A stretch of 64,000 nt of DNA from Anadara kagoshimensis (lineage: Eukaryota > Mollusca > Bivalvia > Arcoida > Arcidae): the NCBI GenBank assembly GCA_021292105.1, contig CM037865.1:66213630-66277629 (forward strand). Direction: 5' to 3'. The stretch's first letter is position 1. Every line of letters begins with the position of its first letter. Below the pieces are notes generated by a model, which saw only the letters and a list, made by a program, of their open reading frames with translations, was not told where the DNA came from and did no database searches. Shown piece by piece: positions 9,381 through 57,116 of this stretch. The position numbers and the translations under genes are program-made.

Positions 9381-9703
9381 CTATCATTATATTATATACG
9401 ATGTCAATTCATACCAATTCATACATTATATATCTGATATCATCAAGTAGATTTATATCTGACTTTCCTCTACAGCAATACATATTCAATATTCCCTAAC
9501 ATCCATAAGTTTTATAATCTTTAACGTACCGTTCTTTGTTCCTGATATTGTCCAAATTGCCTTCTCTTTATCTGAAAGTTAAATATACATGGATATGTAT
9601 TTGTGGAAGAGAGATAACTCTTACACTTAAGTTTAGATTGCGTCTTCATTTCTATATTCAAAGGTTGACGAGAGGCTTCCATACCGGATATACGGACATC
9701 TCA

Positions 9704-12845: not shown

Positions 12846-13835
12846 TGTTACAATGCGTTTTATTTTATTTGTTGAAGCATTGCTATTCTGGCTGCATTAC
12901 GATGCAGTAAGAAACCAATAAAGTAACATGTAGCTTTCAGTGGACCGACTTCCATTATGTCTTTATACTATTTTAGACTTTATGTTTCAGAAATATCTGC
13001 GATAGACCGATTTGCATGTTAATTTCTCTGATATGTACACTTTTATGTTCAGTCGTCAATGTTTGGTGTTCTTTTCCATAATTGGTTAAACAGGTTGTCC
13101 ATCGGCTTACTAAGCACTGACTTTTTCACTATGTACATTTGAAGACAAAAATTATTAAATCCAAATTCCCGCAAACAAATGATCAAGATATAGTGCTCTG
13201 AAATTAGTTGTTGCAATGCAATGTTTGGGCATATTCATGCCAGGTTCGGTGATTGAATTTATTTGATTACTGCGAAAACCTGATTTTTTGATGATATTAA
13301 GAATCAAATTATCAATATATCCACAACATTTTTACATTCAAAAGCTTATAGTATGTAGCAGTCATAACTAAGTCATTGTCATTCTAATTTTCGACAAAAG
13401 AAGATGAGAAAGTTATCGGACGGATGAAACAAAAAGTTAACAAAATTCGTCGTTTGTTCTCAAAATCCAATTAAGTCTTTTAATGGGTATTTTTCAAGTG
13501 AAGCAAATTACATAATAATGAAGCGTTTTTATTACAAGCTGTTTCTTACAGAAAATAAGTATGTGTAGCTTTATATATCAAATTTTCGTTCCCAAGCCTT
13601 TGAAAGATAATTGATTACAAATACTTACCCGAACCACGGCTACTCTCTAAATTGTTTTGAGTTTTTAAGCGCTTTTGCTTCTCATTTTTCTTCTTGTTAG
13701 TATCCATCATGTATTATGTACAAACGGACAGTAACTTGAATGTTTGAGTTTTAACACATAATTACTTTACAATTTTCGTTGGTCTTCTTTTGATGCTGAC
13801 ATCACCAGAATGTTGACCTTGTTAACGACCGTATA
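12846..13835. repeat. Segmental direct duplication, unit A
   Basis: Long collinear similarity to 16397-18420. Shared landmarks in order: GTTACAATGCGTT.TATTTTATT, GATAGACCGATTT, ATGTACACTTTTATGTTCAG, CAGGTTGTCCATCGGCTTAC, GGTTCGGTGATTGAATTTAT, GTCTTTTAATGGGTATTTTT, the putative exon at 13629-13710, and CATCACCAGAATGTTGACCT. The second copy is longer because it carries an extra block and homopolymers. Confidence 0.85.
13629..13710 (-). CDS. Putative first coding exon (copy A), unknown protein
   Basis: The minus strand reads ATGATGGATACTAAC... for 27 codons (MMDTNKKKNEKQK..., ending ..ESSRGS) plus one base, then a consensus splice donor GGTAAGTATT. The second copy at 18191-18272 has the same length, start and donor, and keeps the frame open with conservative changes. 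The product start is highly charged (Lys/Glu rich) and I do not recognise it. Later exons should lie at lower coordinates but were not identified. It could belong to a transposon gene carried by the repeat rather than to a host gene. Confidence 0.4.
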
Positions 13836-16746: not shown

Positions 16747-18190
16747 TTGTAATGCAGTATAGCTTTCAGTGGACCGACCTTCTTCATGCCTTTTATACCA
16801 TTGTGGACGTTATGTTTCAAAAATATCAACGATTGACCGATTTGCATAGTACTTTTTCTTTGATATGTACACTTTTATGTTCAGTCGTCAGTGTTCTGTG
16901 TTTATTTCCATACTTGGTTAAACAGGTTGTCCATCGGCTTACTAGCACTGACTTTTTCATTATGTACATTTGAAGACCAAAACCGATCTAATTCCAAACC
17001 CAGAAATGATTCCGTTTTGTAACTCATAAATATTCATTAGAATGTCACGTGACGCGTTAATTTCAAATCATTAATATTCACAGGTTAAAGTTGGTTAACG
17101 CGAGATTTTAAAATGAAGCGACTTATTAATAATGAGTTCAAAATCTGGATCAAGCCGATGCTGCTGCGAGAAGAATACTTTTTATAATAAGACCATTTTT
17201 TAACGTAAATATAATTGAGAACCTCGTGGTTTTCTCATTCACAAAATGCAGTTTTTTTCAAAATTACAATTTTTTAACAGTCTCGGGAACTTTTTTACTT
17301 CAATTTTGTGAGGCTATTTTGGCATTACTTGGAACAAATGTTCAAGGTGCTTCTTTTTAATGCTCGGAAACTAGCATAGGTCAATGTGTTTATGTTTGAT
17401 ATTCCTTGCAAGATAGCAAAAATCCATTTTTGCCACATTTTGCTTTAAAAGAATAACACGTTTTAAGTGACTCTCGCTTCAAAACTTCAAAATTCGCAGG
17501 AACCTTGAAATTTCTTTAGATGTTGCTAACAAAAATAGTCTGCCCGTTGCAAAGAATTTTGGTAACCCTCGGAAAAATGTCGATGTTCTGTTTTTAGACA
17601 GCAGGAAAGTAATAATGCATTCCTCTATGCATTGTTATGTTTGAATAAAATTACCCCAGAATTCAAAATGGCGGACACATGCAAATTGGTAACCGGACGA
17701 ATTTTGCCACATGCCGCAAAACAAATGATTGAGATAAAATGCTCTGAACTTAATTGTTGCAATGCAGTATTTGAGCATGTTCATGCAAGGTTCGGTGATT
17801 GAATTTATTTGATTACTGTAATAATTTCAACAGTAATACTTGATTTATTTGGTGATTTTATGAATCAAAATACGCACAATATGTTTTTAACATTCAAAAA
17901 CTTATAGTATGTAGTAATCATAACTTCGAGCATTAAAAAGTAAAAAATCATTTAAATTTTGACAAAAGAAGATGGAAAGGATATCAGATGAAGCAAAATT
18001 TAACAAAATCCGTTACTTTGTTTCAAAATGGAAGTAAGTCTTTTAATGGGTATTTTTCAAGTGAAGCAAATAACAATATAATGAAGCGTTTTTCTTACAA
18101 TCAATTTATTACAGTAAATAAGTATGTGGAGCTTATATATTATATTTTCTTTCTAAAGCCTATGAAAGATATAAGATTTAATATACTTAC

Positions 18191-18272
18191 CCAAACCTCG
18201 ACTACTTTCTAAATTATTAAGAGTTTTTAAGCTCTTTTGCTTCTCATTTTCCTTCTTGTTGGTATCCATCAT
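18191..18272 (-). CDS. Putative first coding exon (copy B), unknown protein
   Basis: Paralogue of 13629-13710: 82 bp, start MMDTNKKENEKQK, ending ..ESSRGL plus one base, and donor GGTAAGTATA. The sequence upstream of the ATG is also similar in the two copies for about 130 bp, as expected if promoter and 5' leader were duplicated with it. Downstream exons were not found. Coding status rests only on the shared frame, length and donor. Confidence 0.4.
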
Positions 18273-18799
18273 GTAATATGTACAAACGGACACTAACTTG
18301 AATGTTTGAGCTATAACACATAATAACTTTACAATCTTTCGATGGTCTTGTATTTATGTTGACATCACCGGAATGTTGACCTTGTTTACAGGAGATTGTA
18401 CCGATATACCCGGTGTGCCAAAACCCGTGATCTGGCATAGTGATGGATTGTTATCTTCTAATCGCTATTTACATAACATTTCAAACTCAAATTGATCTTA
18501 AGTATATCTCAAGTAACGACCGGTATCTGCCAAGTGGCCGATGTCAAAAAGTGGTGCATTTATAACAAGAGACCTAATATGGTCTGTATCTCTAAACATG
18601 CATAACATCTCCATTTGCATTTCGGACAAAAGTGCTAGAAACAAAATTGTAAATCTGCATTAACTAAAGGTCATTCACAGTAAATAATGTTCAATTTTGT
18701 CCGGTTGTTCCGAAAGAGAAGATTTTGAAAGACTTGGATAAAAATACAAACTCTGAAAAATGGACCAAGTAATAACCAGAAAAAAACTGGTCAAAGAAA

Positions 18800-24048: not shown

Positions 24049-27000
24049 TTTTTTTTTTTTTTTTTTATTCTTTTTCACTGTTTTACACGTATATATAATA
24101 TAAAAACATATAATTAACAGTTTTACATAAAAACAAACTTATATTCACACACTCATACAAAAACATATTTCAATAATATAGTTAAGGACACTGTTCAAAT
24201 TGTAAACTAAGAGAAAATAAAAAAGTCTTTTTTATTTTTTAAGTTACATTTCCATTTCGTGTAACAGACCCCATTTCTTCAGAAATTTACCATACTGAAA
24301 TTTTATTTTATATAAATATTCCTCAATTTTTTTATAATAAAATATTTCTTTTTTCATGCCTTCAAAGCAGGGAATACTGTTTTTTAATTTTTGTTTATAT
24401 ATATGAAATTTAGCAAGAATAATACATAAATTAGTATATCATTATTTTGGGAAAAATATCCAAATATAATTTCTGTCACAGTAAGTTTTAGATTTAAATG
24501 CAATGTATCATTTATCCACAACTGAAAATTTTCCCAAAAAGATGTGACAAACCTACATTCATAAAAATATGAATTAAAGTTTCTGGTGTTTCATGACAAA
24601 AACTACACAAATCACTTTCAACGACATGTATTTTTTTCAAAAACTGATTGTACTTAGTAATCTATGTACTATACGAAACTGAAACCATCGGAGTTTTACA
24701 TCTTTTGTGCATTTAAATATTAGTATGTTACATCTTTTCCAAAAATCATCAGAAATACCCTCTATTTTCTGTTGCCATTTAAACTCACTAACTGGTTTAC
24801 TAACAATGTTTTGACAAAAATATCGTAAATATTTCTAGTTCCTTTTTTCAGTTTTACAAGGGAAAGTATGAATTGTGACAGTATGGTAGATTGCTTTTAA
24901 AAATGAAAAAATTAAAATTTGTACAATTTTCTTTTAACGCTTTACATATACCAAAATATTGTGTGAAAGGAGGATAAAAACTAAACTTATTACAAAATCA
25001 TTATAATCTAAAATGTTACCATTTACATCTAATAAATCACCAACTAATCTAACTCCTTTAATGAACCATTGTTTAAAAAATACACACTTTTTCCCAATCT
25101 TAATTAAATCATTATACCATAAAGGTGACAATATAAACTCATCTTGCTGAACATTCATATACTCAATTAAAGATGTAAAAACGTCTTTCCAAAAAGGATT
25201 ACTGTTTCAGATATCATCTTCTTCATAAAAGAAGAGCCAAACTTAGTAAAATGTTTAAAAATGTCAGGCATAATGTCAAAAAGTAATTTATTCCAACCAG
25301 AATCAGATAACAACAACCTTCTTATCCAAGTTAATTTCAGACTCTTAATGAATGATTTGACATGTATCATTCTTAAACCTCCATTATGATAATCTTGAAT
25401 AATTGATTTTCGAGATATTCTGTCAGTTTTCGAATCCCAGATATAGTTGAAAAACAGTGTTTCTAACTCATTTAATATATTATTACTTGGATTGGGGAGA
25501 CTAATAAAAGATGAGTAATCTTTGATACCAGAATGCTTTTGACAACAGTAATTCTGCCTAAAGTTGTTAATTTTCTTTTGGACCATGAATTAATTAGCTT
25601 CTTTATCTCCTCAATTTTGTGTCTAAAATTTAAATCAATTATTTCTTCAAGGTGTACAGAAAAAGTTATGCCTAAGACTGTAAATGGTTCATTAGTCCAA
25701 CTCAAATTGTATTCTTTACACAACTTTTCATTGCTAAATCGTTTTGAGCCAATCCAAATGCATTTAGTCTTATCATAGTTGGGACGTAAACCTGAAAATT
25801 TTGAAAACTGCAAAATTAAAGATAATGTATTTCTCACAGAAGACTCTGTTCCATCTAGGAGAATTACAGTGTCATCAGCGTACTGAGATATCAGATACTC
25901 TCTGTTCTTTATTAATATACCCTTTACATTTTTACTATTTCTAATCATAATACCAAGGATTTCTGCACATAATATAAAAAGGTAGGGGGATATTGGGTCC
26001 CCTTGTCTACAGCCTCTACCAATATTAAAAAAATCTGAAAAAAACCCGTTTTGAATGACACATAGTTTTATATCTTTAAACATTGTCTTTATCCACCCTA
26101 TAAAATATTTTCCAAAATTAAAAAAGTTAAGAACGTTAAAAATAAATTCCCATGATACAGAATCAAATGCCTTTTCAAAATCTATTAGCATTAGCAGCCC
26201 AGGCATATTATTTTCTTCTAGATAGTGCAACACATCATAAAGCAGTCTTGTGTTTTCACCAATATATCTGCCAGCAATAAAACCTTTTTGGTTTTCATGA
26301 ACTAATTTATCAAGAACTGTCTTCATCCTACTTGCAATTGTACCAGATATTAACTTATAGCTAACGTTGAGAAGTGTTATAGGTCTCCAGTTTTTTAGAT
26401 ACTCTTTAGGCTTATTTCCTTTAGGCAGCAATGTAACGATTCCCTGTTTTTGAGTATGAGAAAGTATACCTTTATCGTAACTAAATAATAAACTTCTGAA
26501 CAAAAAATCCCCCAAATCTACCCAAAACATTTTAAAAAATTCAGCCGAAAAACCATCTGTACCCGGAGATTTATCACTTTTCATTTTTTTTAGGGTGGAT
26601 AAGATTTCTGATTTTGTAATCGGACAGTCTAAGTGATTTTTCATTTCTTCATTTAATTTATCAACCTTATATTTCTCAATAATTCATCTAAACAGACTGT
26701 TTCTAATTCATTATGTCTATTACTATATAAATGAAAGTAAAATTTTCGAGTCTCCTGTAATATATCTTTCTGATTTATTAAAAGTTCACCATTATCTTTT
26801 TTTAATCTAGATATTGTTTTATTTATAAAATTTCGCTTTTCAAGGTTGCAAAAATACTTGGTTGGTTTTCGCCCTCTTCTATCCATTTGGCTTTGTTCTA
26901 ATCAATAGACCCTCTAGTTCAATTTTCCTAATTTCTTCTAATTGTAACTTTAAGTCATGTAAGACTTCATTCAGAAGACCATCATGATTTTCATCAAGAG

Positions 27001-28029
27001 CTACAGCTAAAATAGCAATCTGATCTTTTAGGATTTAGTTTTTTCTTGCTGTTGACGCTTTTTTGATGCACAATATGGTAGTGTCATTTGCCTAATTTTC
27101 ATCAAAAGTGTTTCAAAAAACAAATTATCATCAATAGTGAACTGAATATCATCATTAGAGATTTCGTGTATCTTTTCCTGAAGATAAATTGGAACTGCAT
27201 ATTCTTTTTTAACTTGTAAAATGACTTCTTTTACTTTTTTAATATATTCATGATCTTTAAGTAAAGAATTATTGAATCTCCAGAAACCTTTGCCTTTTTT
27301 AATATCAGAGAAAGTTAGCTGAAGTTCTATCATTGAATGATCAGTGCGATAGCCAGGTAGAATATCTACTTTGCTCACCAGAGATAATAATTTTCAGATA
27401 TTAAAAAAAAATCTAATCTGGCTTTTTTGATAGGATCGTTTCTAAACCAGGTGAATCTCTTTTTTTCTGGGTGATAAACTCTATATGCATCGACTAGATT
27501 GAACTCATTTTTTAAATTTTCCACACAAGTTCTATTTTTTGGATTGTTCACATTTTTATAATTAAAGCAATCTTTTTCCTGATCCTGAACAACATTCCAG
27601 TCCCCACACATAATAATAAATTCATTATCAAAATCGTTAATTATGTTCTTAATATCATTAAAAAATTCAGGGGAATTACTATTTGGACCATAGATATTTA
27701 CTAAAGTTATGTTATAATCTCCAGTTTCTATTTCTGTCACTAATAAGTTACCATTGCTATCTATTTTTTCCCTACCCAGTTTGTAAGAATAATCTTCCAA
27801 GCAAAGATGCCACACCCCGCGAGTTACTGTTCCCTGGACTGAAGTGACAGTCTAGACCCCATTCTGATCTCACCTGGCCTAGAACCGATCCATCAAAATG
27901 TGTATCTTGCAGACAGTATATTGATGCTTCTTTTTCTCGCAAATACTTAAAAACATCCTTTCTTTTCTTATAATCTTGTAATCCTCTACAATTGAGGGAT
28001 ACTATTTTTAGTGTATCACTCATAATTAA
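24049..28029 (-). mobile_element. L1/Tx1-type LINE, decayed, minus strand
   Basis: About 4 kb comprising an endonuclease plus reverse-transcriptase ORF2, ending in an 18-T run at 24049-24066, which is the poly-A tail read from the minus strand. No ORF1 was recognised between 28030 and the next gene, so the copy is probably 5'-truncated. Domain order (AP-type endonuclease, RT, C-terminal region with a cysteine-histidine motif) and wording place it in the L1/Tx1 group; the exact clade is an inference. Confidence 0.88.
24244..28023 (-). pseudogene. LINE ORF2 (endonuclease-reverse transcriptase), broken
   Basis: The start MSDTLKIVSLNCRGLQ (28023) is the AP-endonuclease N-terminus; IYGPN and CGDWNVV follow near 27700-27590. 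The frame breaks near 27800, 27375, 26890, 26650, 25520 and 25160. The RT core in 25472-26644 holds IDFEKAFDSV (motif A), RGCRQGDPISPYLF (motif B) and YADDTVIL (catalytic YADD). Downstream pieces read LWYNDLIKIGKK.VFFKQW and, near 24600, a CSFCHETPETLIHIF-like Cys/His motif, with the stop near 24244. At least five frameshifts make it non-functional. Typical ORF2 length (~1250 residues) is retained overall. Confidence 0.88.
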
Positions 28030-29580: not shown

Positions 29581-29807
29581 TTACATTCGGCGTATTTTTA
29601 TCTCAGTTGTCTTTAGAGAGTAGTAGTGTCCATGCCATTGGAACCAAACTACTCCTTTGCCGAATTGTGTGTTACCATACAGTCCATTCAGATTAGAAGT
29701 GTGACACAAACCATACCACCAAGCTCCACTATAAAGCACCGAACAATCGTTATGGTCATTGTCGTATGTTGCAAATCCACATCCTTTGGTAAAGTCTAGT
29801 GCATCGC
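29581..29807 (-). CDS. Lectin gene (left), exon 5: calcium and ligand-binding part
   Basis: 227 bp, acceptor ATGTTTTAG, stop TAA at 29581-29583. Contains the YDND calcium site, the C-x12-C pair around GAWWY and the C-terminal KIRRM. This is the exon that differs most, by replacement changes, from the paralogue. Confidence 0.9.
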
Positions 29808-31402
29808 CTAAAACATAAAACATGATAGCTTGTTGAAAAGACAACTAATATAAACTTCCCTGGTTAAATTTTGCGTAATTTACCAAATTCGTTAGTCCAC
29901 AATTTTTACTTTGATTTTGGATTGTTTACATGGACTGGTATGTTTGTTTTTTATGTTATATTTACCAGTCTCATCTTAATGAACAAACAAAACCAATAAT
30001 CCAATTAATTAATTTATTAATTAAATTATAAATGAAAAAAAACAAACATACTAATCGGTGTCCGAATCACAATCCAGAAGGAAAGTAAGAAACTTTGGAA
30101 CTGACAAGTTAGGTTAGACACGTGAATTTCCTCCAGGGAAGTGAGGCCGGGTGCTCCGAAAAGGTAAGCACCTCCTGTTTAGCTACCTATACTCGCTGCA
30201 TGTGTAATTAGAATTGTGGGAAAGGAACATGGAAATTTGGGACGTCAAATATATCCAGGTCAATTCTAGAGAAAGAGACATCAAACTTATCAACAATAAT
30301 GTGATGGCAGCCATAAACTTTTTGAGAGCCTTGATTATTCAGGTTCCATAATTATCCTCATCCCCAATTGGGTTGTTGAAGTAGGACCCTTTAAGATTCT
30401 GTTACAAAAATTGTTAAAGTTTCTGATTTTTATTTCTTCGACATGGAACATTGAAATATGATCATAAAACAACATATATCATCATGTATTTTTATTGAAG
30501 AAATCATGTTTTTCATATTAATTGGTCTCAGAATAATATGGGGGAGTGGAAATTGGAATTTCTAAGGTTAAAAAATAGACAATATTTTAAATGTAATTGC
30601 AACAACATATTATTCACATATTCTGTTACATATCTTACATTTGTTGACCAATGTTTAATAGAATATGTAAAAATTTGTAAGTAATAAATCTGTAGTCCTT
30701 TTTCCAGAAAAAATGTGTATGATGATTCTATATACGAAATTTTAAATTATGATATTGTAATTGGATGGGAATGAAGCCCAGTGCCAATGGAAATGCAATG
30801 AAAAAATCCTCTATTTCTGTTCATCCGTAATAAGAACCATATCTTCACCTGATATTTTAGATTCCAGGGGGATGAACAAATAACTTAAAATAAATGTTTA
30901 TACTTACACTCAAAATCAAATCAAACATAAAACAAATAAATAAATAAATAAATATTCAGTATACAGTAACAATGACACATTGAAACTAGTCAATCATGAT
31001 TAAGTATACAATATAAGCGTATTTTTTTCGGCGCAAGTGAAACAGTTTTTAAAGTTAATATTCTGCCTTTTGGGTTGTGATTTGAACATGGATTGGTCAA
31101 GTTGAGGTTGATAATATAGGACACAAAGTTTTTATAGTTAGAATGTAGAAGATTACCTGCGGTCCCTGTGTAGGAATCATAATTCAAATTGTAATTTACC
31201 GATGGGTCACCTAGTCTAAAGTTACTGTACACTGCGTATTTCCAAACCCCAGAATGATCTTCCAAATCAAATCGTAATGAATAGGTGGCGGAAGATGTAA
31301 GTTCATATAATTTGTCAAGACCTACAAAATTAATAAAAACAAGATTAAGATTAAGCGCATCTCGTATTTAGCGAAAATATTAGGTAAATATCGCGCGCGC
31401 GC

Positions 31403-31433
<31 letters not shown>

Positions 31434-34400
31434 CGATTTGGTCACGTTTGAAATAACATGCATGTATTTCAAAAGGAAAAAAAATTGTCATATATTTGGT
31501 TTTTTATGTATTGGTATTGTTTCTGTTACAATATATGGATTCTCAAGTATTTTTCTACAACTATAGGTTTCACTGGCATCCTGGACAGAAATACTTCGAG
31601 AGAAAGAAAAACGATGACATCGATAAAAACGCGACAAGTAAAATGTAAAGGATCAACCCACACGTTTGGAGGCCTCTTAAGTTCATTGCAAGAATTGCCC
31701 TGGATATATTTGACGTATCATAGTTCCATGTTCCTTTCACACAATTTTGATTACACACGTGGCGGGTGTAGCTAGCTAAACAGGAGGTGCTTACCCTTCC
31801 GAAGCACCCGACCTCACTTCCCTGGTGGAAATTTACGTGTCTAACCTAACTTGTCAGTTCCAAAGTTTTTACTTTGCTTCTGGATTGTGATTGGGACATG
31901 GATTAGTATGTTTGTTTTTTATTGTAACCGGACACCGGTTTGTCAACTATAAAACAATTTTACATTTTGTATTTGTTTTTATATTTATCTATAGGAGGCT
32001 AACTAAAAGTCCTAGCGGACACAGTTAATGAGCAATGCATTTGCGAAAGGCATATAGTAAGTTATTTTGCCAAAATACAATTCAGGTTACCTTTATACAA
32101 TTGATGCGTAAAAAATCTGCTTGTGTAGAAAGATTTTCAGTGATCAAAGATATGATTCAAAACTAAATTATATCCTTTCTTTCTGTCAAATGTTATTGTA
32201 AAGCAACTCTCATAGTAGTAGTAGCAGTAGTAGTAGGGAATGCAGATTATAGTACCAAAAGACCAATTCTTTGATATGATTAAAAAAATATCAGTTTTTT
32301 GTTCCATTTTTAAATGTTATATTAACTGGATTTATTTGATAAAATTGGATGTTATGTTCAAATATTATATAATTATTATTGTAAAATGTATAATATCTGA
32401 ATTACTAACATAATTAAACATTACATAAAAACTTTCCTGCAACCCCGGTATATATTCCGTGAGTTGTCCATAAAAGCATTCCATTGACAGACAAATTTAT
32501 CAGTTTACAAGAATTAACTTTTTTGTCAAACTTTTATATATATTGTTGCATGATAACCCTTTTTGCGTTTGATTTATACAAAGCGAGATAATTACCAAGC
32601 CAGAATTCGCCAGCTGTGTTCCCAAATCCAGTGACATAAGAAGTCCAATTTCGATAGAAATCTGTGGAACCATCCAATCTTCGCTGGAACACCTGAAATA
32701 ATTACAAATAAACAATTAAATACTTTTTGAAATTATATTTGACCTTCAGCTTATTATTATGGTTCTGAAAGATTGAATTGAAGTCATACATACTGTTTAA
32801 ATTTCAAAATACTGCTGAAATAGATATACATGAGATGTCGGGGCATCTAGGTATTTTACGCAACAATCGAACAAACTGGAAATACTTAGTTTTTTGGCTG
32901 TACATTTTGTCATTTTGGTAAATCAAACGTTTTTCAGAATCTTGTCAGTTTCAAAGTTTTTACTTTGCTTTGGAATTATGATTTTGACATTTATTAGAAT
33001 TTTTATTAATTAGGAGGTACTTGCCCTTTTCAAGCACCTGGCCCAACGTCCCTACCGGAAGTTCACAGGTTTAACTTTCTTGTCAAGTTTTACGTTATTT
33101 TTTCTCTGCTTTGGAATTGTGATTTGAACATAGATGATTATGTTTGTTTTTCATTAGTATGTTTTTGATGTAATTGTATTTCTGCTACAGCTTTTTAGTG
33201 ACAGATAGACCGCCTATTTTTGAGGACGTGACCCATTGTTTTTAAAACCTTTTGGAGGATAGTCGTATAAAATATGATATTATATATTGAATGTAAATGT
33301 ATAACGGTTATGCTTGTGATTACATTTTTATGGTATATCTCAACATTGTAACCAATCATGACCTAATCACAGCAATCCTTATAAACAAAGAATGAGTCAT
33401 TTAGAAATGGCCAAGACAAGTTGATTGTCACTGATAACCTTCCGATATCTGCATATACAGAGCGTATAATTCACGAAGTATGTATGGTCATGATTGTGAA
33501 TTTTCATGTGAGATTTAAAATAAATCAATTAGCGCATTAGTATCTCTTGGTCGTCATTGCTAGAGTTATGTTGGTCACAGTCTAGTAGATAAGTGTACAT
33601 TTGATATGATCGTTATATGATTTAATGAAATAGAAACCACAATAATAATGTTGACAATGTATTTTAATCGACTACGATCTGATTTATTTGATCATCAACA
33701 TTTTGAATATAAAATATAAGGTTTTCGTGATAACATAAATAACTAAATGCAAATGAGCTTAACTATCGATTAACTTCAATGTTTTAATTATTTGTATTAA
33801 TTCAGTTTCATTTAGTTTATTTTTTTCACTGAGTTTTGTTTTATACAGGTAAACTAAGGTCTTGAGGGTATTCTTTGTGTATCTGCCTAAGAATAATAAA
33901 AAATATACAAAAGCTTAACCACCGATGTACTTCAATGTTTTTATTATTTGTTTTAATGCATTTTCAATTAGTTTAGTTTTTTCACTTAGTTTTGTTTCAT
34001 TTATCATAAAGGTAAACTCAGGTCTGTAGGGTATTCTTAGTAGCTGTTGTCCCTCTGATACGTTGATATATCATTATCGACAGCTTCATTCATATAAGTC
34101 ATTCAGAACTGAGTTCTGATCGGCTAATACGTATTCACGCGATACGTGTTTATACAGGCGTTTCTTTTCCTAACCAGTATACGTCAAGGACTAGCCCATT
34201 GTCTTTATTTATGAATGAACAACAGGTAAAACAACACACGAATAAAATTCATTTATTACACTTTTTTGGCCTAAAGTCTCGATGAAATGAAATATTCTTG
34301 ACTTGGATATTACACTTCGTGAAATAAAATCTTGTTTTAAAGTAGGCTTTAATGAACTGAATCGCGATAATTCTACCAGAGGAAAGCGTTCTTTATACTT

Positions 34401-36955
34401 GATTCATGCGGCGTAGCATGATTGCCTGTTGTGGATATACCCGTACAGTAAAGTATGAGCTACCTGTACAGTAAAATATGAGCTATCTGTACAGTCTACA
34501 GAAAATCACGCAGCTAATATATCGGTTTTTTAAGTTCTCCAATCTTATCAAACTGTAACAAATCAAATTTCTTTTAACATTCATAATTTGCCCACTGATT
34601 GCATTATGTTTATAAATACTAGCCGAATAAAGAGAAAATAAAGAATATATAGGGAATTCATGACAATTCCGCTCTGAATTACCGTGTTCAACACACGAAT
34701 AAATGTCATAGGCTTCATGTTTTCAAAAACGTTTTAAATAAATCAAAAGTAAATTTGCTTAGTGAGAGCCATGAACAGTTCATAACAACAATGGTTTTAG
34801 ATAATTCTACTTAGGTTTGACCTAGTTGTTTTCGTTCTTCGCATCAGATTGTAGAGCTACCGGCGACTGTACAGTTTGGCTGAACTTCCGTTCCCACACT
34901 GTGAGTTCAGGAAAGTATGATGTCTGTGTCAAAAATTACTCTGCATATATTTGACGTTCAATAGTTCCATGTTTATTTCATTTTAATTTTTTGTTTAAAC
35001 ACATGGCGGTTGTACATAGATTACCAGGAAGTGTATACCGGTCCGGAGGAACAGGTCTCATTTTCTGGTGGAAGTTCATGTGTTGAACTTAATATGTCAG
35101 TTTCTAAGTTTTGCTTTGATATTCCCATTTAGACGTTAGTTTTGTCTTTACTGATGAAAACTCAATGTTCCAAGCATAAAATATTTTGACGAATTTTGGA
35201 GAAATGTATAAAAGAGATATTACAACATATTATCCACAAAATGTATTCTATTTCAAAACAATTATTATATGTATAATACGATACATACCGTCCATCCATG
35301 TCTGTTCATATCGCAATAAACCTCATACTGACTGTTATCTCTGTATATTGTATATACTCCATCTATTGTATTTCCCAAGTTGAAAACTTCTTCACAATCT
35401 CTTGGTTTAGGTTCTAGAAAAATTAACATTTTCATTCGTCTATATGGTATATCATCATATACTGGTTATACATTTAGTAGGATAAGACTTTCACTTTGTA
35501 TATATTTTTCATGACAATAGTACTTACTAGTAACCTGCAATTTTAGAGATGTTTGTTATCTTGGTTTTGAGTCGACATGGGTATAATGATAATTTCATTT
35601 TAATCAATTAAAACTCCATGTGTTTAGTATTGAGGAGAAAATTACAAGAAATTGTCCTAAGAATAAAACAGCGGATGAGTTTGAGAACAAAATTAAAACA
35701 CATGTCTTAGTTAGTTGATAACCATAATGTCTGTGTATCCCAAACTAGCATTGATATATATGACGTCGAAAAATCCCATCTTATTTTCATTTTCAATTTT
35801 GTTTGATGTAGGTAGCTAGAAAGGAGTGTTTACACTTTTGGAGCACCCGACCTCATTTGAATGGACGAAATTCACAAGTTTAACTAGATTTGCCAGTTTT
35901 TATAATTTTTACTTTGCTTTTTGGATTGTGGTTGGAACATGGATAGGGATTTTTATGATTATGATTGATTATGACCTATAAAGTTTCTATCAACATTTAG
36001 TTCTCCTCACTGAATATATGAAACATTTAGAATATCTAATTTAAAACTAATTCCATCATGGAGTATGCCACTGTAATTACCGTGGCACTTTACTAATCAC
36101 CAATAAAGATAATTATGTGATTGTTCACTCTTTTTTATCATATCACATCTGAGAAAAACTGATACAGTACTTTTTTGTTTTATGGTAAAATTGAAACGTT
36201 TCAGTTTGCAAAAAATTATTTAAATGGTATCTGGTATAATTGACTTGACTATAATTTAATCCAATTGGTTGTCCTTAGTAGTGTGTTAATATGTTCTTAT
36301 ATTTCCTAATCACATTTGCTGGATGCATTGTATAATTTTTTCTAACTTTTTTTAAACCTACTTTTTGAGACCTTTTCATTTTCCTACATCAAAGTTACAA
36401 ATTAATGTATGAAAATTATTGATAAATATCGTCAGTCATACAAAACTGAACAGTCCCTCCACTACAACATGCAAAGATAGTCCAGGAAAATTTCAGAATT
36501 CAGCTTCCAATTGAAAATAAATTCACATTAGGATGGAACTTTATACATAGATTCATATCAAAACAGGAGCATCTAAAATGGAATTATCCAACTTTTTAAT
36601 TGGTCAGTTACTATCAAATCTTCGATGAATGTCATTGTAAAGGCTATATCTTACCCGTTTTATTCAAGTAGTAATATTTCCATCCCGTCTCAGATATTCC
36701 TGCTCTAAAATCTGTAAATATAACTGAGTGTAGCTGACAAATGTCACAGCCCTCCTGATAGAAAAATGACACACATAGAGTAACTTCCTCACATAATTGT
36801 GAACACTTGTTTAAAGATGTTTGACATCCAAAGTCTTTCCGTAGTTTGTACTTGTTAATGATTTTGTCACGGAATGAAACGTTTTCCATATATGTCAAAC
36901 TTGAACTGAAAACGTTATCCACAAATATTAAAACGATAGATAAATGTAGAACCAT
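29581..36955 (-). CDS. Secreted fibrinogen-domain lectin, five exons
   Basis: Joined exons 36655-36955, 35289-35413, 32596-32692, 31157-31321 and 29581-29807 give 915 bp, 304 residues and a stop. All introns begin GT and end AG and all phases agree (1, 0, 1, 1). Residues 1-20 look like a signal peptide. Residues 42-95 form a small PAN/apple-like segment with cysteines at 44, 51, 55, 61, 70 and 73. Residues 104-304 are a fibrinogen C-terminal domain: PRDC, GVYTIY, EVYCDM, FQRR.DGS.DFYRNW, EFWLG, calcium site YDND (245-247), C251 and C264 around GAWWY, SNLNG, and WHGHYYSLK near the end. Proteins of this family are secreted, bind acetylated sugars and act in innate recognition; the ligand here is unknown. 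It is paired head to head with a paralogue at 45959-57116. The start chosen is the ATG directly before the hydrophobic stretch. Confidence 0.9.
30040..30350 (-). mobile_element. Penelope-like element tail in intron 4 (left gene)
   Basis: Well-preserved copy from the AAACAAACATAC end through TTTAGCTACCTATACTCGC to CATAAACTTTTTGAGAGCC. It is only in the left arm. Confidence 0.85.
31062..31105 (+). mobile_element. Short Penelope-tail remnant shared with the right arm
   Basis: Only the last ~40 bp of the tail (GGGTTGTGATTTGAACATGG). The inverse counterpart lies at 55318-55360 at the same place of intron 4 in the other gene. Confidence 0.6.
31157..31321 (-). CDS. Lectin gene (left), exon 4
   Basis: 165 bp, acceptor AATTTTGTAG, donor GCAG|GTAATC. 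Encodes [11 protein letters not shown] to YTGTAG, the central beta-sheet part of the fibrinogen fold. Confidence 0.88.
31392..31434. repeat. (CG)n/(GT)n microsatellite
   Basis: CGCGCG run passing into GTGTGT in intron 3 of the left lectin gene. Confidence 0.95.
31681..31922 (+). mobile_element. Penelope-like element tail in intron 3 (left gene)
   Basis: Close match to the consensus: ATTGCCCTGGATATATTTGA, stop TAG, GGCGGGTGTAGCTAGCTAAA and the end GTATGTTTGTTTTT. It is antisense to the host gene and has no counterpart in the right arm. Confidence 0.88.
32596..32692 (-). CDS. Lectin gene (left), exon 3
   Basis: 97 bp, acceptor TTATTTCAG, donor CTTG|GTAATT. Encodes [16 protein letters not shown] through GEFWL. 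Confidence 0.88.
32935..33155 (+). mobile_element. Penelope-like tails, diverged, in intron 2 (left gene)
   Basis: Two partial, degenerate pieces: TTGTCAGTTTCAAAGTTTTT at 32942, then GGAGGTACTTGCCC through GATTATGTTTGTTTTTC. The right arm has a comparable remnant at 53360-53480. Confidence 0.65.
34912..35128 (+). mobile_element. Penelope-like tail, diverged, in intron 2 (left gene)
   Basis: ATGTCTGTGTC, TATATTTGACGTTCAATAG, CACATGGCGGTTGTA and GTGGAAGTTCATGTGTT follow the family order. The equivalent in the right arm is at 51065-51283. Confidence 0.75.
35289..35413 (-). CDS. Lectin gene (left), exon 2: start of fibrinogen domain
   Basis: 125 bp, acceptor TTTTTCTAG, donor ACG|GTATGT. Encodes ..[16 protein letters not shown]....[13 protein letters not shown]. 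Confidence 0.88.
35725..35955 (+). mobile_element. Penelope-like tail, diverged, in intron 1 (left gene)
   Basis: ATGTCTGTGTATCCC, TATATATGACGTCG, GGAGTGTTTACACTTTTGGA and TTTGGATTGTGGTTGGAACA. It matches 49178-49420 of the right arm in position and orientation. Confidence 0.75.
36655..36955 (-). CDS. Lectin gene (left), exon 1: signal peptide and PAN-like part
   Basis: 301 bp, ATG at 36955, donor CGG|GTAAGATA. The frame is open a further 55 codons upstream to 37120, but those residues are not hydrophobic and precede the signal peptide, so they are probably 5' leader. Confidence 0.85.
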
Positions 36956-37515: not shown

Positions 37516-37655
37516 AAAACTGGTATAATATCGGAACATTTATTGTTTAGTTTTTTTTGTTTGTTTTTCATTTCCTTCTGTTGTTAAAAGCCTAATTGGC
37601 GGTGACTACGTTTGATATCACATCCATTCAATGTATTTGACAATACTTGATGTTT

Positions 37656-37915
37656 ACATGTCTCGTTGTTCAGGATTGCCCTGGGTCAATTTGACGTCTA
37701 ATAGTTCCATGTTCCTTTAACTAAATTTTGATTACACGCTTACACACGTGGCGAATGAAGCTTGCTAAACAGGAGGTGCTTACCCTTCCGGGGCACCCGG
37801 CCTCACTTTCCTGGTAAAAGTTCACGCCTGAAACATAACTTGTCAGTTTTAAAGGTTTTACTTTGCTTCTGGATTGTGGTTCGGACATGGATTGGAATGT
37901 TTTGGGTTGTTTTTA
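37656..37915 (+). mobile_element. Penelope-like element tail between the lectin genes
   Basis: Good match from GTTCAGGATTGCCCTGG through GAGGTGCTTACCCTTCCGG to the GGATTGGAATGTTT end. Confidence 0.85.
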
Positions 37916-40212: not shown

Positions 40213-41593
40213 TAGAAGGCAATTATAACAGACATACACAGCAAATATTTTGTTGTCCCAGCTGATAAGGCTTCCAACAACATTATTCTCGTTTGTAAGA
40301 GATTCTACCTTGAATGTCTTATTAAGGAGCTTGGTTTAGATAGTATATCAAATAACCCTGCATATACTAGAACTAATTTTACCAAAGATGAAGTTCTTTC
40401 CAACCATAGGGGAGTTCTCGAGTCTTTCGGTATCAATCTTAAAGAGGAAGATCTTGATCTTCCTTACTTGTATTGGATTCCTAAACTCCATAAAAATCCA
40501 TACAAGGAAAGATATTAGCAGCTCATCTAAATGTACTACTAAATCATTATCGATAACTCTAACGCAAATTTTGACAATCGTCAAAGTTGGTCTTCAGTCT
40601 TTTTCAGAAAAAGTATATTCTACATCTGGAATCAACCAAATGTGGATTCTCAAAAATTCTAAAGAATTACTTGAACATCTCGCTTCTAATACTTTATCTC
40701 ATGTAAAAAGTATAAAAACATTTGATTTTTCTACACTATACACCACAATCCCTCATTCTAAATTGAAAGAACGTCTTAAAGAAATTATTCACTTGTCTTT
40801 CTTCTACAAAAACGGTAAGCCAAGATACAAATATCTGGTGCTGAACAAGGATTCTGGTTATTTTGTCAAGCACCATACGGATTCCAAACAAAAATATACT
40901 GAAGATACCATCAACAAAATGTTGGAGTTTTTGATAGATAACATATTTGTTGTGTTTGGTAATATAGTTTTTCAGCAAACAATCGGTATACCAATGGGTA
41001 CAAACTGTGCACCATTGCTTGCTGATTTGTTTCTTTATTCTTACGAAGCAGAATTTATGCAGAACCTTGTTAAATCTGGAGAGAAAACTGTCGCCAAATC
41101 ATTCAACTCAACATACAGATATATAGATGACGTTCTGTCTCTTAACAATCCTAAATTTGGAGACTATGTAAATGTCATCTATCCTAGTGAGCTTGAAATA
41201 AAAGACACGGCTGATTTCTCAAGTTCTGCTTCATATTTAGACTTATACCTGAATTATGACGCACAGGAAAGGCTACATTTGAAACTTTATGACAAACGTG
41301 ATGACTTCAATTTTTCTATTGTCAACTTTACTTTTTTATGCAGCAATATACCTGCTTCTCCTGCTTATGGTGTATTTGTTTCCCAATTAATACGCTATGG
41401 TAGAGCTTGTTCCCACTACGGGGACTTTGTACAACGAAGTAGGCTGCTTGCAAATAAATTATTGATTCAGGGATATTGCAAGCCTAGGCTTGTCAAGGCC
41501 CTCAAAAAGTTTGATGGCCGTCATCACAGTATTGTTGATAAGTTTGATGTCTCTGTGTCCAGGATTGCCCTGGGTATATTTGACGTCTCATAG
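40213..41593 (+). pseudogene. Penelope-like reverse transcriptase, 5'-truncated, one frameshift
   Basis: RT that copies element RNA at the target site. Upstream, the frame reads VVPADKASNNIILVCKRFY and LPYLYWIPKLHKNPYKE (40255-40512). A small deletion near 40517, where the decayed sister copy has RYIAGSSKCTT, shifts it into the long frame ending at 41593. The main frame holds FDFSTLYTTIPH (motif A), GIPMGTNCAPLLADLFLYSY (motif B), YRYIDDVLSLNN (catalytic YIDD) and LYDKRDDFNFSIVNF. It ends SVSRIALGIFDVS. The first ~43 residues of the open frame from the ATG at 40388 are out-of-frame reading and not real protein. The catalytic residues are intact, but the copy is incomplete. Confidence 0.85.
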
Positions 41594-41795
41594 TTCCATG
41601 TTCCTTTCACACAATTTTGATTACACACGTGGCGGGTGTAGCTAGCTAAACAGGAGGTGCTTACCCTTCCGGAGCACCCGGCCTCACTTCCCTGGTGGAA
41701 GTTCACGTGTCTAACCTAACTTGTCAGTTCCAAAGTTTTTACTTTGCTACTGGATTGTGATTCGGAAATGGATTAGTATGTTTGTTTTTAATTAG
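40213..41795 (+). mobile_element. Penelope-like retroelement with reverse transcriptase
   Basis: The longest well-kept copy of the family whose tails pepper the window. It is 5'-truncated at about 40213 (GGCAATTATAACAGACAT) and ends in the common GTATGTTTGTTTTT. It holds most of the RT-bearing protein and the 3' leader of ~200 bp after the stop. No GIY-YIG endonuclease motif follows the RT: the frame stops 50-60 residues after the last RT block. Confidence 0.85.
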
Positions 41796-42409
41796 CTATA
41801 AATCTGACAATGTATTGTTTGTAATGATAGATAAAGACACATTTTAAGACATAATTTCTTAGGTATATCATAGTAGTATGCACATGGTTTATATTTTATA
41901 TGTATCATTATATGTAGTCAAACTAGTCTATAAAACCATGCAAAGGAACCAGTTAATGTAGCCTTTATGGACAGGTGGTCTTTATATACAGGTTCAATAA
42001 TATGAATAAAAACAATTGGAATAAAATTCTACTGGCCTTTATAAGCAGGTGCTCCTTATATAAAGGTGAAATTAAGGCAGGTTGGACTGTACTATTAGAC
42101 TTGCACTTGGTATGTTATGTGGGTGTGGTATTATTGCAGTGAATTTGTATTGTATGTGTTTTCGTGATATGGGTCAGAATGTTGTACGTATTTTGAATTT
42201 TTTTTATAAAATATTGCAAAATTGTACAAATTATATATACATTAGTCTATACTGGAGACTGCCTTAATGTAATCAAATTACCATTTTTACTCAACAAACA
42301 ATTAACTTTTGTTTGGTGTTTTAAGACTTATTTTTTTATTTCAAAATTAAATCGCCACCAGTTTTCTACTCATTCAATAAATTACATATTATACCAGTTT
42401 TAATTTTAC

Positions 42410-45098
42410 AGCACTAGACGGCCGTTTCGGAACACAATTCCTCATCAGTAGTGCTTGGACCAAAATTATGAAACCTAAATTATTTTAATGATGTTGAAAA
42501 GCTACCCAAAGGACCAAAATATATTTTACCAAATTAAGCTAAGGAAATACTTTGCATGAGGGAGTATACCTTAGTTTTTGAGAAATTGAAAAAAACATTG
42601 CAGTGTTTGAACTTTAATATTTTGTTTACCTGCTCTTGTTCGTCTTCTTCCTATATTTATGGACCAACTGGACATGCAATAACTGGTGATCTTAATATAA
42701 TCGAGAACACCAAATTAAGATCTTTACTTTCCAAAGGTCCTAAATATAGAGAAGCTCATCATTTTACTTGGGGTCAGAATTTTAGAATTGTCATGGATTC
42801 CGTTGAAGACTACGCTAGACATTGTTAGATCTTTCGTTAAAACGAGGAATGCCAATTTTAAAGGGTTTATGAGTACTAAACCATCTTCTGTACTGAGGGA
42901 CCCAGAATGTTTGGCAATTATAACAGACATAAAAAACAAATATGATGTTGTCCCAGCTGTCAAGGCTTCCAGCAACATTATTCTTGTTTGTAAGAGACTC
43001 TACCGTGAATGTCTTATTAATAGACATTTCCAATTAAGAGGGAGACGGACTTCAGAGACCGAAACCGAGACGGACTTCATTATTTTAGGGGCGATCTCAG
43101 AAGTTGATATGTTAACATACAACAAAATATATATATGAAAAAAAATGTTTATTCATAAACAGTTTATAGAATATAGGATTATCTGAATAGTCGCTGTCTA
43201 CAGACAGCTAATGAAGCACAAATTTCTACGATTGACGAAATATACCAACGGGGATGACGCCACAGACTACCTATTGCCTGATACATTTTCATCTCCCGTA
43301 TTTTATGCTCAGCTTTTACACGATATGTACAGTGAAACCTCCCTAAACCGGACACTTTCTAAACCGGACACCTCTCTATTCCGGCCAAATATTTGGTCCC
43401 GAATTAATCCTTCTTTATTTCAACTAAAATAAACCTCTCTAAACCGGACACTGTCTTTTTGAATTTTGAAAATTTTGTTTTTTTTAATAACTTGTTTTTC
43501 TTTTTTAAATTAGATTAGTTTCAAACAGATTTATGAAAATATCTAATTAAGTACACTTTGAAATTATCAGTTATTTAGTCTTTTTTATTCTTATTTAAAA
43601 TAATTGGTATTTAATATAATTACTCATGTATTTATTTTTTAAATATGGTATATCAGATAATCCTGCATATACTAGAACTAATTTTACCAAAGATGAAGTT
43701 CTTTCTAACCATAGGGGAGTTCTTGGTTCTTTTGGCATCAATCTTAAAGAGGAAGAACTTGACCTTTCTTACTTGTATTGAATTCCTAAACTCCATAAAA
43801 ATCCATACAAGGAAAGATATATTGCAGGCTCATCTAAATGTACTACTAAATCATTATCTGTAACTCCAACACAAATTTTAACAGTCGTCTAAGAAAGTCT
43901 TCAGTCGTATTCAGAAAAAGTATATTCTACATTTGGCATCAACCAAATGTAGATTTTTAAAAATTCTAAAGAATTACTTGAACATCTTGCTTCTAATACA
44001 TTATCTCATGTAAAAAGTATAAAAAGATTTGATTGTGTACACTATACACCACTATCCCTCATTCTAAATTGAAAGATGGTTTTAAAGAAATTATTCACAT
44101 TTCACTCTTTTACAAAACGGTAAGCCAAGATACAAATATCTGGTGTTGAACAAGGATTCTGGTTATTTTGTCAAGCATCATACGGATCCCAAACAAAAAA
44201 TACTGAAGATACCATCAACAACATTTTGGATTTTGTGATAGAAAACATATTTGTTGTGTTTTATAATATAATTTTCCAACAAAAAATCGGTATACCAAGG
44301 GCGTAAACTGCGCACCATTGCTTGCTGATTTGTTTCTTTATTCTTATGAAGCCGAATTTATTCAGATCCTAGTTAAATATGTAGAGAAGAGTGTCGCCAA
44401 ATCATTCAACTCATCATACAGATATATAGATGACGTTCTGTCTCTGAACAATCCTTAATTTGGAGACTATGTGAATGCCATCTATCCTAATGAGCTTAAA
44501 ATAAAAGATACGACTGATTCCTATAGTTCTGCTTCATATTTAGACTTCAACCTGGATTATGATGCCCACAAAAGGCAACGTTTGAAACTTTATGACAAAG
44601 TGAAGACTTCATTTTTTCTGTTGTCAACTATCTTTGCAGCAATATACCTGCTTCTCCTTCTAATGTTGTATTTGTTTCTAATTTATACGCTATGGTAGAG
44701 CTTGTTCCCACTATGGGGGCTTTGTGCAACGAAGCAGGCTACTTGCAAATAAATTGTTGACTCAGGGATATTGCAAGCCTAGGCTTATGAAGGCCCTCAA
44801 AAATTATTTTTACATTACAGTATTGTTGATAAGTTTGATATGTCTGTGTGTGTCTGTGTCCAGGATTGCCTTGGATATTTTTGACGTCCCATAGTTCCAT
44901 GTTCCTTTTACATAATTTAGATTACACACGTGGCGGGTGTAGCTAGCTTAACAGGAAGCGCTTACCCTTCCGAAACACCCGGCCTTACTTCCCTGGTGGA
45001 AGTTTACGTGTCTAACCTAACTTGTCAGTTCCAATGTTTTACTTTGCTTTTGGATTGTGATTCGGATATAGATTAGTATGTTTGTTTTTTGATTATCT
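42410..45098 (+). mobile_element. Penelope-like retroelement, longer but decayed, split by an insert
   Basis: Carries the 5' region missing from the previous copy: CACTAGACGGCCGTTTCGGA, then GHAITGDLNIIENTKLRSLLS and KGPKYREAHHFTWGQNF (42670-42780), DSVEDYARH, and a block ending LVCKRLYRECLI (43020). It is then interrupted at 43027-43640 and resumes at 43645 with NPAYTRTNFTKDEVLSNHRG. Several stops and frameshifts follow (43780, 43892, 43951, 44290, 44457). The usual tail ends at ~45098. It is a dead copy, useful for reconstructing domain order. Confidence 0.82.
43027..43640. mobile_element. Insert with AACCGGACAC repeats, possibly pogo/Tigger-like
   Basis: Separates adjacent codons of the Penelope copy, compared with the intact copy near 40322. 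It contains ACAGTGAAACCTCCCTAAAC followed by two further AAACCGGACAC words (43330-43450), which resemble the terminal repeats of pogo/Tigger-type DNA transposons. No transposase was seen, and neither the exact edges nor a target duplication could be fixed. Confidence 0.5.
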
Positions 45099-45958: not shown

Positions 45959-46257
45959 ATGTTTTTTCGTTTAACTTTCTTTTTAGTATTTGTTAATAAT
46001 ATTTTTAGTTTAAGTTTGGCATTTTCAGAAAACGTTTCATTTCGTGACAAAATCTTTAACACATTCAAACTTCAGAGTTTTTGGATGCCAAATATCTTTA
46101 GACAATTGTTCACAATTATGCGAGGACTTTTATCTTTGTGTGTCATTTTTCTACAAGGATGGATGCGATATATGTCAGCTACATTCGGTTACATTTACAG
46201 ATTCTACAGCAGGTCTATCTCAGACGGGATGGAAATATTACTCTGTGAATAAAACGG
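45959..46257 (+). CDS. Right lectin copy, exon 1 (frameshifted)
   Basis: The signal-peptide frame runs from 45959. After the 2-bp loss the cysteine-rich frame continues as FGCQISLDNCSQLCED through GWKYYSVNKTG. Donor CGG|GTAAGA as in the left gene. Confidence 0.7.
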
Positions 46258-49713: not shown

Positions 49714-49838
49714 AATTAAAGCCGAGAGATTGTGAAGATGTTTATAAGTTGGGAAATACAATAGATGGAGTGTATACAATATACAGAGATAACAGTCAGT
49801 ATGAGGTCTATTGCGATATGAACAGACATGGATGGACG
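49714..49838 (+). CDS. Right lectin copy, exon 2
   Basis: 125 bp, acceptor TTTTGCTAG, donor ACG|GTATGT. Four residues differ from the left copy. Confidence 0.85.
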
Positions 49839-49850
49839 GTATGTATCGTA

Positions 49851-50148
49851 TGCTCCCTCAAAAAGTTTTATGGCCGTCATCACAGTAATGTTGATAAGTT
49901 TGATGTCTCTGTGTCCAGGATTGCCTTGGATATATTTGACGTCTCATAGTTCCATGTTCCTTTCACACAATTTTGATTACACACGTGACGGGTGTAGCTA
50001 GCTAAACAGGAGGTGCTTACCCTTCCGGAGCACCCGGCCTCACTTCCCTGGTGGAAGTTCACGTGTCTAACCTAACTTGTCAGTTCCAAAGTTTTTACTT
50101 TGCTTCTAGATTGTGATTCGGAAATGGATAAGTATGTTTGTTTTTGAT
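49851..50148 (+). mobile_element. Penelope-like tail next to the exon-2 splice donor
   Basis: Well-preserved copy starting CCCTCAAAAAGTTTTATGGC and ending AAGTATGTTTGTTTTT. It begins 12 bp after the exon-2 donor GT at 49839. It is absent from the left arm, where the donor is followed by ordinary intron sequence. Confidence 0.9.
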
Positions 50149-53895: not shown

Positions 53896-53992
53896 GTGTT
53901 CCAGCGAAGATTTGATGGTTCCACAGATTTCTATCGGAATTGGACTTCTTATGTCACTGGATTTGGGGACACAGCCGGCGAATTCTGGCTTG
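53896..53992 (+). CDS. Right lectin copy, exon 3
   Basis: 97 bp, acceptor TTATCCCAG, donor CTTG|GTATAT. Two residues differ from the left copy. Confidence 0.85.
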
Positions 53993-55085: not shown

Positions 55086-55250
55086 GTCTTGACAAATTAT
55101 ATGAACTTACATCATCTGCCACCTATTCATTACGATTTGATATGGAAGATCATGCTGGGGTTTGGAAATTCGCAATGTACAATAATTTTAGACTAGGTGA
55201 CGCATCGGCAAATTACAATTTGAATTATGAAACCTACACAGGAACCGCAG
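55086..55250 (+). CDS. Right lectin copy, exon 4
   Basis: 165 bp, acceptor AATTTTGTAG, donor GCAG|GTAATC. Nine residues differ from the left copy. Confidence 0.85.
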
Positions 55251-56135: not shown

Positions 56136-56655
56136 TATTTATAATTTGAAACTTTATGACAAACGTGATGACTTCAATTTTTCTATTGTCAACTTTCCAT
56201 TTTTATGCAGCAATATACCTGCTTCTCCCGCTTATGGGCTATTTGTTTCCCAATTATTACGCTATGGTAGTGTTTGTTCCCACTACGGGGACTTTGTACA
56301 ACGAAGTAGGCTGCTTGCAAATAAATTGTTGATTCAGAGTTATTGCAAGCCTAGGCTTATCAAGGCCCTCAAAAGTTTATGGCCGTCATCACAGTATTGT
56401 TGATAAGTTTGATGTCTCTGTGTCTAGGATTGCTCGGATATATTTGACGCCTCATAGTTCCATGTTCCTTTCACACAATTTGATTACACACGTGGAGGGT
56501 GTAGCTAGCTTAACAGGAGATGCTTACCCTTCCGGAGCACCTGGCCTCACTTCCCTGGTAGAAATTCACGTGTGTAACCTAACTTGTCAGTTCCAAAGTT
56601 TTTACTTTGCTTCTGGATTGTGATTAGGACATCGATTAGTATGTTTGTTTTTGAC
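56136..56655 (+). mobile_element. Penelope-like element, 3' 520 bp
   Basis: Begins inside the RT frame (LYDKRDDFNFSIVNFPF), is open at 56146-56403, then shifts frame near 56390 before the normal tail. It lies in intron 4 of the right lectin copy, only ~240 bp before exon 5, and is absent from the left arm. Confidence 0.88.
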
Positions 56656-56889
56656 TAATTAATTGATTGAATTATTTGCTTAGGTCGTTTATTAAGATGC
56701 TACTAGTAAATATAAGGTTATAAACAATCATATCATTCCATGTTAAATCACAAGAAAAAAAAAACAAAAACAAAGTAAAAACTGAAGACTACTAAATTTA
56801 GTTAAACACGCCAACTTTAACTATGAAATTTTATATAAGTTGTTCACACTTGTTCATATTTTAAACAAGCTATCATGTTTATGTTTTAG

Positions 56890-57116
56890 GCGATGCACTA
56901 CTCCACGGCAAAGGATATCGTTTCTCAACATACGACAATGACTTTAACTCATGTTCGGTGCGATTTAGTGGAGCTTGGTGGTATAATAGTTGTCACAATT
57001 CCAACCTGAATGGACTGTATGGTACCACTGTATTCGGGAAAGGAATGAATTGGAAACAATGGCATGGACACTACTACTCTCTAAAGACAACTGAGATGAA
57101 AATACGCCGAATGTAA
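56890..57116 (+). CDS. Right lectin copy, exon 5
   Basis: 227 bp, acceptor ATGTTTTAG, stop TAA. Nineteen of about 75 residues differ from the left copy, almost all in the first three quarters, around the calcium and ligand sites. The last ~20 codons are nearly identical. Confidence 0.87.

Follow-up and report, generated by a model that had tools for sequence, protein, structure and literature searches.

The fibrinogen-type lectins of invertebrates are candidates for variable immune receptors, and to our knowledge the position of their variation relative to the binding subsites has seldom been shown. FREPs carry one or two IgSF domains according to the accessible part of one report (PMC7588048). 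The accessible parts of two others describe an expansion of fibrinogen-domain genes in oyster, where the positive selection presented concerns a TLR and not a fibrinogen gene (PMC4346834), and diversified or expanded fibrinogen-type genes in Biomphalaria (PMC10875847).

Binding sites have been mapped on the fibrinogen domain of FIBCD1. The accessible part of PMC3908420 assigns Tyr405, Cys414, His415, Tyr431, Ala432 and Trp443 to the inner acetyl site, includes the cis Asn413-Cys414 in the acetyl pocket, and gives Asp393, Asp395, Ser397 O and Asn399 O as the calcium ligands. As far as PMC10825690 is accessible, it places Lys381 and His382 in an outer subsite, S1(2), at which the K381L mutant abolished binding to acetylated BSA, and names Asn413 (via its backbone), His396 and Arg412 as further outer-subsite residues; the outer-rim mutant H396A had no significant effect on binding.

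Here we describe two copies (A and B) of a five-exon gene encoding a fibrinogen C-terminal domain (PF00147), which lie head to head in a window of 64,000 nucleotides from Anadara kagoshimensis, the window being the whole stretch of DNA that was analysed (Table 1). A search that scarcely covered subscription journals returned no literature on this gene pair.

A duplicated pair of fibrinogen-domain genes

Genes A and B are a duplicated fibrinogen-related (FReD) pair whose proteins are probably secreted. The Fibrinogen_C profile (PF00147; cut-off 22) scored 207.8 bits with the five exons of gene B and 213.3 bits with gene A, from the end of its exon 1 through exon 5. The frame of gene B is uninterrupted across all 5 exons and would give one protein. 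The signal-peptide-like stretches of both genes were judged by eye, with no prediction tool. A tblastn search of the window found A and B and no third copy, and protein patterns searched against viral and genome contig collections gave 73 and 48 matches, none of which was confirmed as a relative.

Table 1. Positions of the exons of both genes and of the intron stretch used as a neutral yardstick
Feature	Position	Strand	Remarks
Gene A exon 1 from ATG	45959..46257	+	signal-peptide-like stretch, followed near 46075-46080 by a net loss of 2 nt compared with gene B
Gene A exon 2	49714..49838	+	beginning of fibrinogen C-terminal domain; Pfam PF00147
Gene A exon 3	53896..53992	+	
Gene A exon 4	55086..55250	+	
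Gene A exon 5	56890..57116	+	predicted C-terminal ligand-binding third of domain; AG precedes, stop codon ends exon
Gene B exon 1 from ATG	36655..36955	-	signal-peptide-like stretch and Cys-rich, weakly PAN-like module; frame intact
Gene B exon 2	35289..35413	-	
Gene B exon 3	32596..32692	-	
Gene B exon 4	31157..31321	-	
Gene B exon 5	29581..29807	-	paralogous partner of gene A exon 5
Gene A distal intron 4	56359..56889	+	alignable to gene B 30335-29808; neutral yardstick, 15% different

The introns and 3' flanks of the two genes are partly alignable. An interspersed repeat is common to intron 4 of both copies and therefore probably predates the duplication. This repeat occurs in many copies on both strands (1341-1634, 31629-31922, 37618-37911, 41499-41792, 44800-45093, 49855-50148, 56362-56655 and others), and neither the viral nor the genome contig collection contained an exact match to a 25-base pattern drawn from it.

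The window has a GC content of 0.32 and contains a variety of other repeated sequence. Between the lectin genes, two tandem units of 3.3 kb occupy 40340-45093 (86-93% alike in four blocks), the first of which holds a reverse-transcriptase-like frame below the Pfam cut-off, and a long array of 49-bp units begins shortly past gene A, from 59757 to beyond 61568. Arrays of 114-bp and 27-bp units lie at 5357-6274 and 8521-9463, two pieces of mariner-type transposase remnants (DDE_3; HTH_48) at 10315-10746 and 10959-11573 on the minus strand, and a local duplication to which no content was assigned at 13161-13776 and 17707-18338 (85-86% alike in three blocks). A non-LTR retrotransposon on the minus strand (25475-26683 and 27378-27851) combines a reverse transcriptase frame with an endonuclease-like one that falls short of the Pfam cut-off. 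The window gave no match in Rfam or tRNA scans.

The N-terminus and the state of gene A

Ficolins carry a collagen-like region at the N-terminus. Neither a collagen nor an Ig match was found in exon 1 at E values up to 1, and exons further upstream are possible. The same scan gave PAN_1 in exon 1 of gene B at 14.2 bits (E 0.039), under the 21.4 cut-off, and no profile match in the exon 1 piece of gene A.

Exon 1 of gene A has lost a net 2 nt within 46070-46085, downstream of the signal-peptide-like start and ahead of the Cys-rich module. With the resulting frameshift, translation from the ATG would stop after 97 aa. Exons 2-5 of gene A are nevertheless open and their splice sites intact, where drift for half of the divergence would be expected to leave 4.2 frameshifting indels and 4.4 stops. 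Since these exons are unbroken against about 8.6 expected lesions, the exon 1 lesion is probably recent, an assembly error, or bypassed via another first exon, and a long-drifting pseudogene was rejected.

The frameshift, as a possible assembly error, raises the question of whether a sequencing or assembly artefact, or allelic mixing, makes the difference between the copies. This is extremely improbable: the introns, the 3' flank and four other exons have diverged independently (noncoding DNA by about 20%), and the two copies of exon 5 stand in opposite orientation 27 kb apart.

Exon 5 compared with the other exons and with noncoding DNA

The in-frame comparison of exon 5 between A and B reproduced the counts of the original prediction, which had been made by eye: 19 replaced codons (5, 6, 7, 10, 11, 13, 19, 21, 25, 26, 33, 34, 37, 46, 48, 53, 54, 56 and 70), five codons with synonymous changes only (12, 38, 39, 47 and 50), and 36 of the 41 base changes in replaced codons. 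The many codons said to carry two or three changes number 13, and the near identity of the final 20 or so codons is borne out by a single change (codon 70) in codons 57-75. In exons 2-4, 12 of 28 changes are synonymous and 16 are replacement (NG86).

These counts need a neutral expectation. Exon 5 has about 178 replacement and 47 synonymous sites, and its 31.5 replacement against 9.5 synonymous changes amount to 77% replacement, which is the neutral expectation; with 178 of the 225 sites being of the replacement kind, a mostly-replacement pattern alone proves nothing. A dN/dS not above 1 in exon 5, with more paralogues included, had been named beforehand as a refuting result, and taken plainly the claim of a value above 1 was rejected. 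The exon has dN 0.202 and dS 0.237 (dN/dS 0.85), and pairwise maximum likelihood gives an omega of 0.97 (p=0.94 against 1). The average is not above 1, which on that criterion would refute the interpretation unless sites are modelled.

Exon 5 does, as was claimed, evolve unlike the other exons. Exons 2-4 pooled have a dN/dS of 0.33 by counting and 0.32 by maximum likelihood (p=0.008 against 1) and exon 1 an omega of 0.42 (p=0.007), while the single-exon values for exon 3 (0.27, p=0.21) and exon 4 (0.61, p=0.44) are not significantly below 1. With a common neutral rate, omega is 1.18 in exon 5 against 0.28 in exons 2-4 (2dlnL 21.4, p=3.7e-6). The contrast lies in dN (Fisher p=1.2e-5) and not significantly in dS (p=0.62), and the simplest ratio test, which sets replacement to synonymous counts in exon 5 against those in exons 2-4, is not significant (p=0.11).

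Noncoding DNA of the same genes served as the yardstick. Eight noncoding regions differ by 0.15, 0.17, 0.19, 0.22, 0.23, 0.25, 0.32 and 0.55, the last two being poorly aligned. We excluded three of them: the region at p 0.55, from the 5' end of intron 1, whose homology is doubtful; the one at p 0.32, which comes from the 3' end of intron 3 and contains simple repeats; and the sequence preceding the ATG (p 0.25). The estimates of rates and lesions rest on the remaining five of the eight regions, in which 213 of 1088 ungapped sites differ (about 0.20 per site). The dS of exon 5 lies inside the 0.17-0.27 range of these five, the other three being at 0.30, 0.41 and 0.98. Taken together with a dN/dS of about 1, this indicates an overall rate for exon 5 close to that of the introns. 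Wholesale replacement of the exon by a distant paralogue was rejected: whole-exon dS, the flanking intron and the 3' flank are all at the ordinary level.

Clumped changes and a class of fast-changing codons

The changes within exon 5 are packed together. There are 13 multi-hit codons where 6.5 are expected (P=0.0003), or 7.9 if the count is confined to codons 1-56 (P=0.003), and adjacent changed pairs occur at 2.05 times expectation, against 1.25 in the introns. Such packing could inflate tests for selection if several bases mutate together, and multinucleotide rates were therefore fitted on the introns in three frames (d2 0.014-0.056, d3 0-0.019, t 0.197-0.212 per base). The test then set distributions of omega capped at 1 against unrestricted ones, using simulated nulls calibrated on the introns.

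Exon 5 yielded a class of codons with omega above 1 (about 29% of codons, mean omega about 8), with a likelihood ratio statistic of 14.6 that 0 of 400 null simulations reached. Both controls were null, 85 of 200 simulations reaching the observed statistic for exons 2-4 and 102 of 200 for exon 1. The result stood at 0 of 400 under the upper multinucleotide rates, under a faster clock and without multinucleotide mutation, and became 9 of 400 when multinucleotide rates were tripled; without multinucleotide mutation the exons 2-4 control was borderline (9 of 200) and the exon 1 control was not (50 of 200). Models of that last kind give a larger exon 5 signal (2dlnL 32.6), which we discount because adjacent changes inflate it. 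Removal of codons 5-7 or of codons 33-34 left 0 of 300 in each case and removal of both 5 of 300, whereas further removal of codons 53, 54 and 56 abolished the signal (39 of 300). Exon 5 is thus a mosaic of fixed codons and codons that changed faster than the genes' own introns, while exon 1 and exons 2-4 (pooled) are constrained.

This mosaic bears on the idea that exon 5 of one or both copies lost its function and drifts neutrally, with gene A as a pseudogene. Relaxed constraint of this kind would account for a mean omega near 1, for the equal effect on the three codon positions (13, 15 and 13 changes) and for the frameshift in gene A, and yet at the intron-calibrated rates all mixtures with omega not exceeding 1 are rejected. 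The family motifs and codons 57-75 are conserved, exons 2-4 are constrained, and the downstream exons of gene A are free of the lesions that drift should have left. We consider it unlikely.

A second alternative is harder to set aside. About 15% of the codons of exon 5 may be short patches that arrived by gene conversion from distant family members or by complex multinucleotide mutation, the rest being ordinary. A null with rate heterogeneity in which omega is at most 1 and about 15% of codons are saturated neutral patches reaches lnL -132.80, against -131.59 for omega above 1; it fits nearly as well, which leaves selection and the import of patches unseparated. M1a combined with a free multinucleotide model comes similarly close (lnL -435.8 vs -434.5). 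Codons 5-7 differ at 7 of 9 bases and codons 33-34 at 5 of 6, and the clumping is alike in the three reading frames (13, 10 and 12 multi-hit triplets) and hence not specific to the codon frame. Synonymous divergence is also uneven, with dS at 0.32 in codons 1-55 and 0.02 in the remainder, compared with about 0.20 in introns, and all five synonymous-only codons lie at most 2 codons from a replaced codon (P=0.085). The raised dS in codons 1-55 led us to weigh selection slightly lower and patch import slightly higher. Against import, whole-exon dS stays within the range of the five noncoding regions and is not significantly above that of exons 2-4, exon 2 alone already has a dS of 0.33, the multinucleotide rate that would be needed (d2 0.28) is far above the intron-fitted one, and a donor sequence was not found in the window. 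We regard patch import as possible, if on the whole unlikely. Consequently, the original proposal of diversifying selection or conversion in exon 5 is upheld as far as it calls for sites beyond neutral expectation, while the choice between its two causes is not made by these data.

Changed residues on the FIBCD1 domain

To place the changed codons we used the register in which codons 22 and 35 of exon 5, the C-x12-C pair present in both copies, correspond to Cys401-Cys414 of human FIBCD1, and counted positions along the alignment. An AlphaFold model from the two-sequence alignment had a pLDDT of 40.9 and was set aside in favour of the published FIBCD1 residues.

The changes had been said to cluster around the calcium site and the C-x12-C ligand pocket. 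What holds of this is the outer rim of the pocket: the equivalents of outer-subsite residues 381, 382, 412 and 413 (codons 6, 7, 33 and 34) differ between the copies in 4 of 4 cases (P=0.003 by a hypergeometric test and 0.008 if restricted to codons 1-56, for a set picked post hoc after the papers). His396 was left out of this set, falling as it does in an alignment gap, so that codon 19 is not its equivalent. The inner pocket does not share the pattern, as only one of its six residues differs, the Tyr405 equivalent at codon 26 (Phe in A, Tyr in B). At the Asn413 equivalent A has Ser and B has Leu, and the acetyl-pocket His and Cys are kept in both, as is the CHxxNLNG motif of the S1 site, present as CHN/TSNLNG.

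The calcium part of the claim fares worse. Four residues of the calcium loop are missing in both copies, and in the gene A alignment two of the four FIBCD1 ligand positions fall inside the gap, so the label "calcium site" is doubtful for either exon 5. The inner pocket is itself noncanonical, with Phe, Gly and His in both copies at the equivalents of Tyr431, Ala432 and Trp443. Given this pocket and the gapped loop, calcium-dependent ficolin-like chemistry should not be assumed.

Comparison with four human FReD sequences indicates which copy moved. At the 19 replaced sites A is closer to them at 9 and B at 8, with 2 ties, in an alignment whose gaps at codons 19 and 45-46 differ slightly from those of HMMER's FIBCD1 alignment, so that the assignments of codons 19 and 46 may change. 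Both lineages have therefore changed, which also speaks against relaxed constraint, and B departs at codons 13, 54 and 70, which are nearly constant in the four human sequences.

Discussion

We favour divergence in ligand specificity after duplication, with replacements favoured at outer subsites and the inner pocket and fold retained, and we put its probability at a little under one half (about 0.47) from the two sequences compared. According to this proposal, the ligand specificities of copies A and B would have diverged once the gene had duplicated, with selection acting at the equivalents of FIBCD1 Lys381/His382 and Arg412/Asn413. Shifting microbial or other glycan targets may have been the driver, a part of the proposal that is less certain. 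Gene A would later have gained its exon 1 frameshift, unless the assembly is in error there or another 5' exon is used.

Several points were counted against selection: a mean omega that is not above 1, the nearly equal patch null, the elevated dS of codons 1-55 and clumping in all frames. Counted with them were the backbone nature of the Asn413 contact in FIBCD1 and the normal binding of H396A, both taken from the accessible part of the source. It is also conceivable, and we think quite improbable, that this FReD family's last exon acts as a cassette. Short codon blocks around the outer subsites would then be exchanged again and again, through selection together with conversion from a reservoir of family members, around an unchanging inner pocket and fold, and gene A and other broken copies could serve as donors.

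Should selection on specificity be confirmed with more paralogues, it would locate the rebuilding of specificity after duplication in the outer glycan subsites, as opposed to the inner acetyl pocket and the calcium site. The pair also illustrates how raw replacement counts mislead, since the average is neutral-like and the excess becomes visible only in a site-level analysis calibrated on introns.

Among known systems, the fibrinogen-like domain of tenascin-C/-R is the best PDB sequence match (best E 9.5e-56, with exons 2-5 of gene A); here, unlike in the tenascins, the domain belongs to a protein that is small and has a Cys-rich module at its N-terminus, and neither FN3 nor EGF matched the Pfam-scanned exons. 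Mollusc FREPs (e.g., Biomphalaria FREP3) and the oyster expansions resemble the pair in being fibrinogen-domain genes duplicated in clusters and, in the accessible parts of the reports, diversified (PMC4346834, PMC10875847), but the IgSF domains of FREPs gave no match in exon 1 of the lectin pair at E values up to 1. In Anopheles, the fibrinogen-type gene FBN8 likewise has sites for which a dN/dS above 1 was reported; the accessible part of that report differs in describing a single exon, a within-genus comparison and a negative McDonald-Kreitman test (PMC2811201). Compared with the FIBCD1 domain (PDB 4m7f), copies A and B are without the four calcium-loop residues, depart at Tyr431/Ala432/Trp443 and differ in outer-subsite residues, while they have in common with it the PF00147 domain, the C-x12-C disulphide pair, the CHxSNLNG motif and the acetyl-pocket histidine.
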